From positions 1 through 64,000 of IMG/VR virus record IMGVR_UViG_3300032298_000575: a DNA stretch of 64,000 nt. The stretch is one strand, 5' to 3'. This DNA comes from a virus. The position numbers and the translations under genes were made by a program. The number at the start of each line of letters is the position of its first letter. Position 1 is the stretch's first letter. Below, piece after piece: positions 16,539-17,555 of the stretch. The notes under the pieces were generated by a model. That model ran no database searches. It saw only the letters and a list, made by a program, of their open reading frames with translations, and was not told the DNA's origin.

Positions 16539-17555
16539 ATGAATCATGTGGATAATACCATCACTCACCTCAGTCTCTGCACCGGATACGGCGGTCTCGA
16601 CCTCGGAATCCGACAAGTCATTGGCGACCGCCTGCGAACGGTTGCTTACAGCGAAATCGAAGCATTCGCGTGCGAGTTACTTCTCTCGCGCATGGAAGGC
16701 GGGCAACTTGATGCGGCTCCGATCTGGCCTGATCTCCGCACTTTCCCTTGGGAAGAGTTCGCCGGAGTCTCGATCATCTCGGGCGGCTTCCCTTGCCCTC
16801 CATTTTCCGCCGCCGGAAAACGGGGAGCCGACACCGATCCAAGACACTTGTTCCCTTACATACTCGACGGGATCCGGCGATGCCGACCTTCCGTTGTTTT
16901 CTTGGAGAACGTCGAAGGGATCGTCTCGGCCAAACTCCAGGGCGACGGGTGGAGCGACCCCGCCGGCACTCCGGTTCTGCTCCATGTCCTCCGAGAGTTG
17001 GAGCGCGTGGGTTACCGAGCAGAGGCGGGATTATTCTCGGCGTCAGTCGATGCGGGAGCGCCACACCAACGGAAGCGAGTGTTTATCTTGGCCCACCGCC
17101 TCGGCGCGGGACTCGAAGGGTGGCTACCAAGGGGGCCGCATACGGAACGGGAAGCTCTCGATGGACACCTTGGATGTGGCAGTCCAAGCCTATCGGGAGG
17201 GGGGCATCCTTGGCCCGCCCGTCCGGGGCAAGAGCAGCATGATTGGGAACCACCCCGAGTCTTGCTGGGCAACACCGAACGCGGGGGACGGCAAAGCTGG
17301 CATGGCGGTCAACAGGAAACAGAAGTCACTCGGGCAGGATGTGAGTCAGGCCGAGGGTGGCTATCTGGTGAAGGCCAAGCTGAACCCGAGATTCTGCGAA
17401 GCCTTGATGGGACTGCCGATCGGCTGGCTTATGCCGAGTTGTGCGTGTCCTGCGATTCCCGCTGGGACGAGCTTCGATTGGCTGGCAATGGCGTTGTGCC
17501 CCAGTGCGCTGCCGTCGCCTTCCGTTCTTTGCTCGACAAAGTAATAACACCATAA
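16539..17555 (+). CDS. DNA cytosine-C5 methyltransferase
   Basis: This 338-residue enzyme would transfer a methyl group from SAM to C5 of cytosine in DNA, protecting or marking phage DNA. Motif I is LSLCTGYGGLDLG (about 11-23). Motif IV GGFPCPPFS (about 82-90) holds the catalytic Cys. Motif VI is ENVEG, motif VIII is QRKRVFILA (about 177-185) and motif X is LAGNGVVPQ (about 314-322). The start has no Shine-Dalgarno but follows GTAATAAC. The +1 frame is open over nearly the whole gene (16546-17544) and reads like the C-terminal half of related phage enzymes (see that entry). From about 17100 to 17430 that other frame has the more gene-like third positions, so the target-recognition part may be read by frameshifting or the locus may be dual-coding. 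Confidence 0.9.
   Translation: MNHVDNTITHLSLCTGYGGLDLGIRQVIGDRLRTVAYSEIEAFACELLLSRMEGGQLDAAPIWPDLRTFPWEEFAGVSIISGGFPCPPFSAAGKRGADTDPRHLFPYILDGIRRCRPSVVFLENVEGIVSAKLQGDGWSDPAGTPVLLHVLRELERVGYRAEAGLFSASVDAGAPHQRKRVFILAHRLGAGLEGWLPRGPHTEREALDGHLGCGSPSLSGGGHPWPARPGQEQHDWEPPRVLLGNTERGGRQSWHGGQQETEVTRAGCESGRGWLSGEGQAEPEILRSLDGTADRLAYAELCVSCDSRWDELRLAGNGVVPQCAAVAFRSLLDKVITP
16546..17544 (+). CDS. overprinted +1 frame of the methyltransferase, recognition-domain-like
   Basis: This frame stays open for 332 codons inside the methyltransferase gene. Its second half looks like the C-terminal region of phage cytosine methyltransferases: SWPTASARDSKGGY (from about 17083), CWATPNAGDGK, and LNPRFCEALMGLPIGW (17380-17427). 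It ends AAG TAA TAA C, the double-stop motif used by many genes here. Third codon positions over 17100-17430 look richer in G/C than in the other frame. Internal starts are at 16984 and 17050. It could be made by +1 frameshifting near 17080, by internal initiation, or reflect two compensating indels in the sequence. Confidence 0.45.
   Translation: MWIIPSLTSVSAPDTAVSTSESDKSLATACERLLTAKSKHSRASYFSRAWKAGNLMRLRSGLISALSLGKSSPESRSSRAASLALHFPPPENGEPTPIQDTCSLTYSTGSGDADLPLFSWRTSKGSSRPNSRATGGATPPALRFCSMSSESWSAWVTEQRRDYSRRQSMRERHTNGSECLSWPTASARDSKGGYQGGRIRNGKLSMDTLDVAVQAYREGGILGPPVRGKSSMIGNHPESCWATPNAGDGKAGMAVNRKQKSLGQDVSQAEGGYLVKAKLNPRFCEALMGLPIGWLMPSCACPAIPAGTSFDWLAMALCPSALPSPSVLCSTK

Follow-up and report, generated by a model that had tools for sequence, protein, structure and literature searches.

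The window, a 64,000-nucleotide stretch of a 70,004-base virus record (IMGVR_UViG_3300032298_000575), contains a C5 cytosine methyltransferase gene that is open in two frames of the same strand (Table 1). The frame-0 product, here called alpha, matches the Pfam family PF00145 (E 4e-28, residues 9–188), and motifs I, IV, VI, VIII and X are all present, as the original prediction had held. Equally in line with that prediction, the +1 frame (beta) is open over 332 codons and contains WPTASARDSKGG, CWATPNAGDGK and LNPRFCEALMGLPIGW, with two modules of the W-x-T-P type. Beta matches the family phrog_1008 (“DNA methyltransferase”) at 2.8e-11, and the betas of its relatives do so at up to 4.1e-17. 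The window beta has no match in Pfam, and the beta profile matched neither a Pfam family nor a sequence among solved structures. A plasmid search with P0002 gave no matches; a query with the N15 beta did give plasmid matches.

Codon-usage log-odds prefer frame 0 along most of the gene up to approximately 17088, the +1 frame from 17088 to approximately 17358 (GC3 0.70–0.87 vs. 0.50–0.57), and frame 0 again near motif X, which bears out the earlier impression that third positions of the +1 frame look more gene-like in the middle of the gene. Beta was also said to end at a local gene-end signature. This signature, GTAATAAC, occurs at 11 plus-strand sites in the window and is often followed by RCCA; eight of the 11 TAATAAC sites terminate a frame that has been open for at least 62 codons, and the beta stop lies in one of them.

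Table 1. Features of the two-frame methyltransferase gene and gene-end signature sites in the window.
Feature	Position	Strand	Remarks
Alpha CDS, frame 0	16539..17555	+	338 aa; C5 cytosine methyltransferase catalytic part, motifs I–VIII and X
Beta CDS, +1 frame	16546..17544	+	332 aa; polypeptide with modules and motif IX, phrog_1008 family
ATGTG, overlapping starts	16546..16550	+	Beta ATG 16546–16548; possible alpha GTG 16548–16550
Alpha upstream ATG	16539	+	Second possible alpha start
Alpha motif I, LSLCTGYGGLDLG	16569..16607	+	
Alpha motif IV, GGFPCPPFSAAGKR	16782..16823	+	
Alpha motif VI, ENVEG	16905..16919	+	
Alpha motif VIII, QRKRVFIL	17067..17090	+	
Beta module 1, WPTASARDSKGGYQGGRIRNGKLSMDTLDVAVQA	17089..17190	+	Common to distant phages
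Beta module 2, start, WATPNAGDGKAG	17266..17301	+	W-x-T-P type
Beta motif IX, LNPRFCEALMGLPIGW	17380..17427	+	Third-base identity and motif pattern in relatives
Alpha motif X, GNGVVPQ	17484..17504	+	
Beta stop within TAATAAC gene-end signature	17542..17548	+	
Alpha stop, TAA	17553–17555	+	Downstream of beta stop
TAATAAC sites in window	1879, 7552, 7842, 9727, 11475, 14842, 16520, 17542, 18680, 19439, 63341	+	

When viral contigs were searched with the frame-0 protein, 80 relatives (41–95% identity) emerged. In nearly all of these, the +1 frame stays open over the gene and codes for a protein related to beta. Synonymous codons were shuffled within each gene in 66 non-redundant relatives (<80% identity), and 12 stops were observed in the +1 frame vs. 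335 expected, counts to be read as effect sizes rather than exact probabilities since the relatives share a phylogeny. The +2 frame of the same relatives contains 1069 stops (1042 expected), and the +1 frame of 91 neighboring control genes 1255 (1201 expected). The deficit is found in the N-terminal half (11 vs. 242.5) as well as the C-terminal half (1 vs. 140.4), the halves having been trimmed slightly differently from the whole-gene count. By itself the window gene is only borderline, with a chance of zero +1 stops of approximately 6–9% per half.

Selection was examined at the level of single bases. At fourfold-degenerate sites of frame 0, third bases are identical far above the codon-usage expectation in codons 1–80, 141–180 and 281–300, with a peak (0.99 vs. 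0.29 expected) in codons 281–300, the region of beta motif IX. Single-base changes were also counted between 16 close pairs, assuming a transition bias of 3. For the C-terminal half, +1-only silent changes (1.20 times expected) and frame-0-only silent changes (1.24 times) are nearly balanced, doubly silent changes are the commonest (3.3 times), and changes altering both frames are rare (0.76 times). Over the N-terminal half, constraint is stronger in frame 0 yet also present in the +1 frame, and changes creating a +1 stop are depleted (0.08–0.21). Protein-level constraint thus acts on both frames, and the per-frame comparison of homologs that had been proposed as a check finds both conserved, not just one.

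The start of beta could be examined in the 64 relatives with a locatable conserved Trp of beta, and in every one it lies 2, 5 or 8 nt upstream of an alpha start. The beta start codon is ATG in 59 and TTG in five, and in 46 the sequence ATGTG is common to both starts (beta ATG, alpha GTG); 34 of the 64 have no other possible start for alpha nearby. In the start region of the window gene (ATGAATCATGTGG), the candidate starts are 16539 and 16548 for alpha and 16546 for beta. A second alpha family has a start region (ATGAATGAG) in which the first ATG belongs to alpha and the second to beta. The original prediction had offered a second start as one route to dual coding, and this branch holds: beta has its own conserved start overlapping that of alpha, with further support from the selection on its N-terminal half. 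In four relatives (L045, L052, L070 and L074) beta is split by TAAAAAATG, in which a stop codon precedes what appears to be a new start. The division falls at approximately codon 107 of the +1 frame, within a less conserved region of beta, leaving an N-terminal piece of approximately 107 aa and a C-terminal piece that begins MQYELFS.

The motifs of a C5 methyltransferase are distributed over the two products. AlphaFold2 models alpha confidently over most of residues 1–200 and over 316–338 but poorly between, and the model aligns with the large domain of M.HhaI (Z 19.4, 201 residues). Motifs I, IV (Pro-Cys), VI (ENV), VIII and X of alpha contain invariant columns in 60 relatives. The motif IX pattern, in contrast, is found in the +1 frame in 64 of 66 genes of the window family. 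In frame 0 it is found in none of them, whether the narrower text pattern is used or the one that was widened once to take in the streptococcal LTPRECWRLQGFP. Of 166 genes in three families, 161 carry motif IX in the +1 frame and lack it in frame 0, while motif X is in frame 0; the Streptococcus family differs from these in having motif IX in frame 0. Given its lack of motif IX, the window alpha alone is not a complete single-chain C5 methyltransferase. The AlphaFold2 model of beta is poor (pLDDT 54.7) save for two helices; this would fit a chain that folds only with its partner, although a poor model is no evidence by itself.

The same parts exist in other arrangements. In Mycobacterium phage Phasih, gp65 unites them in one chain and a single frame, with alpha at residues 5–158 and 376–402, beta at 287–398, and motif X, and it is matched by both phrog_363, which corresponds to alpha, and phrog_1008, which corresponds to beta. 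These are separate families, both labeled “DNA methyltransferase”, and the labels give no hint that one segment can encode both. In the mycobacteriophage JewelBug, profile searches identify gp81 as alpha and gp80 as beta; here the two genes overlap only partly, and beta carries motif X.

Modules of the W-x-T-P type recur in the beta family, with up to seven per beta. Eleven distinct copies of the 34-residue module 1 have a mean identity of 76% when read as beta and 36% when read as alpha, so that beta drives conservation there, and the module appears from its distribution to move between phages. A module of the form KGGYxGGRxRNGKxSxDxLDV is found in L001–L004, L006, L015, L108, L109, L137, L166 and L264, from phages whose methyltransferases are otherwise distant, and may correspond to one common target sequence. 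Some betas have more W-x-T-P modules beyond the end of alpha (L069:4098-4876, L078:4275-4735 and L032:3615-3961) and resemble multispecific phage methyltransferases with tandem recognition domains. At L012:3001-6204 the beta frame stays open and leads into a PD-(D/E)XK nuclease-like protein (PF12705, residues 481–734 of 1067), a possible fusion of a methyltransferase subunit and an exonuclease. Such non-overlapping stretches of beta, past the alpha end and in L012, are hard to explain without translation of the +1 frame.

The beta profile retrieved a further 75 viral loci (L107–L181), and every one of them, like eight of nine contigs from bacterial genomes or MAGs, has both frames in the same +1 relation. 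Sharply bounded +1 ORFs are also found in three further alpha families. The Acinetobacter ABMM1 type has one +1 stop vs. 214 expected, counting both halves. The epsilon15/N15 type, in which the N15-type betas are short, has none vs. approximately 190 (over a stretch that begins 120 codons ahead of motif VIII and ends 139 past it), and the Streptococcus/Staphylococcus type has one vs. approximately 290 (beginning 100 codons ahead of motif VIII and ending 19 past it). The +1 ORF of this last type (L272:1667-2086; L279–L357) is conserved, encodes approximately 140 aa and belongs to phrog_16143. It spans approximately motifs III–VIII and lacks IX and X, both of which the frame-0 enzyme has itself. 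A role as part of a split enzyme leaves this ORF, inside a complete enzyme, unexplained, and at least this part of beta could serve some other purpose. Dual coding in C5 methyltransferase genes could be a general and ancient phage feature, with a +1 protein overprinted on the catalytic domain in at least four distant families, complete single-chain enzymes among them, and with the overprinted part having a function of its own beyond modules and motif IX; we regard this broader proposal as a real possibility, though one that falls slightly short of an even chance.

The suggestion that the arrangement is widespread therefore stands, in view of the viral loci, the bacterial contigs and the further alpha families. 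That it has been overlooked is true in part. Often only one frame is annotated, namely alpha in N15 and epsilon15, and beta in Cronobacter phage JC01, Synechococcus phage JY39 and Acidovorax Alfacinha1. On the other hand, both frames are annotated in JewelBug and Streptococcus P0092, and M.EcoHK31I (PMC3404938) and the overlaps of Streptococcus phages (PMC5601072) had been published.

Several explanations of the open +1 frame do not involve a second protein begun at its own start. The frame could be a side effect of base composition or codon usage, a reading that the borderline result for the window gene alone would allow. However, the shuffles preserve the codon usage of each gene, the +2 frame and the neighboring genes are normal, and the open stretch is sharply bounded, with ends that differ between families; a compositional origin is extremely improbable, and the codon shuffles together with the control genes rule it out. 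A single methyltransferase gene broken by sequencing or assembly indels is a conceivable origin insofar as a single-frame version is known, that of Phasih, but independent assemblies show the two-frame layout again in 66 + 50 + 50 non-redundant genes, and it also recurs in isolated phages (e.g., N15) and in bacterial MAG contigs. Its repetition in independent assemblies means that the two frames are not a sequencing artifact, and we give this origin practically no chance and consider it ruled out. Programmed +1 ribosomal frameshifting, which was the other route in the original prediction, would fuse the N-terminus of alpha to the recognition part of beta and would produce the observed move of codon usage from frame 0 to +1 near 17088. 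Against it, the +1 frame ends without motif X, which sits in frame 0, so that a second, opposite shift would be required; beta has a conserved start of its own; and the +1 frame is nearly free of stops and constrained in its N-terminal half, although a shift would leave that half untranslated. Frameshifting between the two frames is accordingly disfavored and very unlikely.

A different alternative accepts beta as a genuine overprinted protein and gives it a separate job, for example as a regulator or counter-defense factor, with alpha acting alone or with some other partner. The Streptococcus-type +1 ORF, kept open inside a complete methyltransferase, speaks for such a role. In the window family, however, alpha has neither motif IX nor a confidently modeled small domain, beta carries motif IX, and Phasih unites both parts in one chain, all of which makes a separate job rather unlikely there.

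Dual coding with conserved starts, selection in two frames, complementary motifs, and natural fused or less-overlapping versions are established for this gene and its relatives. We consider it probable that the segment encodes two full-length proteins from near-coincident starts, most likely joining as a split methyltransferase. Alpha would fold as the large domain of a C5 methyltransferase, providing SAM binding, the catalytic Pro-Cys, and motifs I–VIII and X. Beta would supply the parts missing from alpha, namely motif IX and one or more W-x-T-P modules at the position of the target recognition domain; beta, for which the structure model is poor, may adopt a recognition-domain fold. The two would form a heterodimer in which beta sets sequence specificity by DNA recognition, with modules exchanged between phages, and the assembled enzyme would mark phage DNA and so may protect it from host restriction. 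In frame 0, the sequence facing the modules is likewise kept open and in part conserved; alpha may therefore have a share in recognition, in keeping with a prediction made for M.EcoHK31I. Historically, the ancestor may have been a single-chain enzyme like that of Phasih, in which small indels on either side shifted the recognition part into the +1 frame; alpha could then have retained an open path to motif X while beta acquired a start and an overprinted N-terminal part. The switch in codon usage near 17088, and its return after approximately 17360, fits such a history.

Precedents exist for both the two-polypeptide enzyme and the overlapping frames. In M.EcoHK31I (YGGCCR), the gene for the second polypeptide is nested, out of frame, within that for the first, and its beta of approximately 176 aa is contained inside alpha. 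The second polypeptide of the window system is likewise in another frame of the same DNA, but it is 332 aa long and, beginning at a nearly shared start, accompanies alpha over its full length rather than being C-terminal only. M.EcoHK31I consists of two polypeptides, the larger with motifs I–VIII and X and the smaller with motif IX (PMC3404938), a division that, by description, is that of the window system. Both polypeptides are needed for methylation in vitro, according to the title of the original paper (reference 18 in PMC3404938). The recognition domain of M.EcoHK31I is predicted in the large subunit (PMC3404938), unlike the recognition-type modules of the window system, which are in beta. 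By analogy, the window system would work like M.EcoHK31I, and we class it as a variant of that enzyme rather than a member of its type. M.AquI is also a C5 methyltransferase in two chains, whose small subunit has motifs IX and X (PMC3404938), whereas in the window motif X stays in alpha.

In Streptococcus thermophilus phages of the 5093 group, C5 methyltransferases that overlap in different frames have been described as a striking feature; phage MM1 and Tn5252 were earlier examples, and the overlap is reported as total (PMC5601072). Here as there, a single piece of DNA gives two products by being read in different frames; unlike the window gene, the streptococcal type has, where tested, a frame-0 enzyme with motifs IX and X and a +1 ORF covering only approximately motifs III–VIII. 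Out-of-frame insertions of HNH endonucleases in mycobacteriophage methylase genes (PMC11855218) are a different phenomenon. In open-access papers we found no description of the co-extensive layout, the shared start or the breadth. What is new is the co-extensive overlap with near-coincident starts, the exchangeable beta modules and the breadth, the idea of two polypeptides or overlapping frames being already known.

For double-stranded DNA phages, a same-strand overlap of approximately 330 codons that many viruses conserve at approximately 45–50% protein identity makes an unusually strong case of dual coding. Natural controls exist alongside it in the form of fused, partly overlapping, divided and nested versions. 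Constructs that lose the second frame, for example by codon optimization, could give false negatives in tests of methyltransferases. Annotation picks a single frame in such genes, and protein databases may as a result lack one half of many phage methyltransferases.
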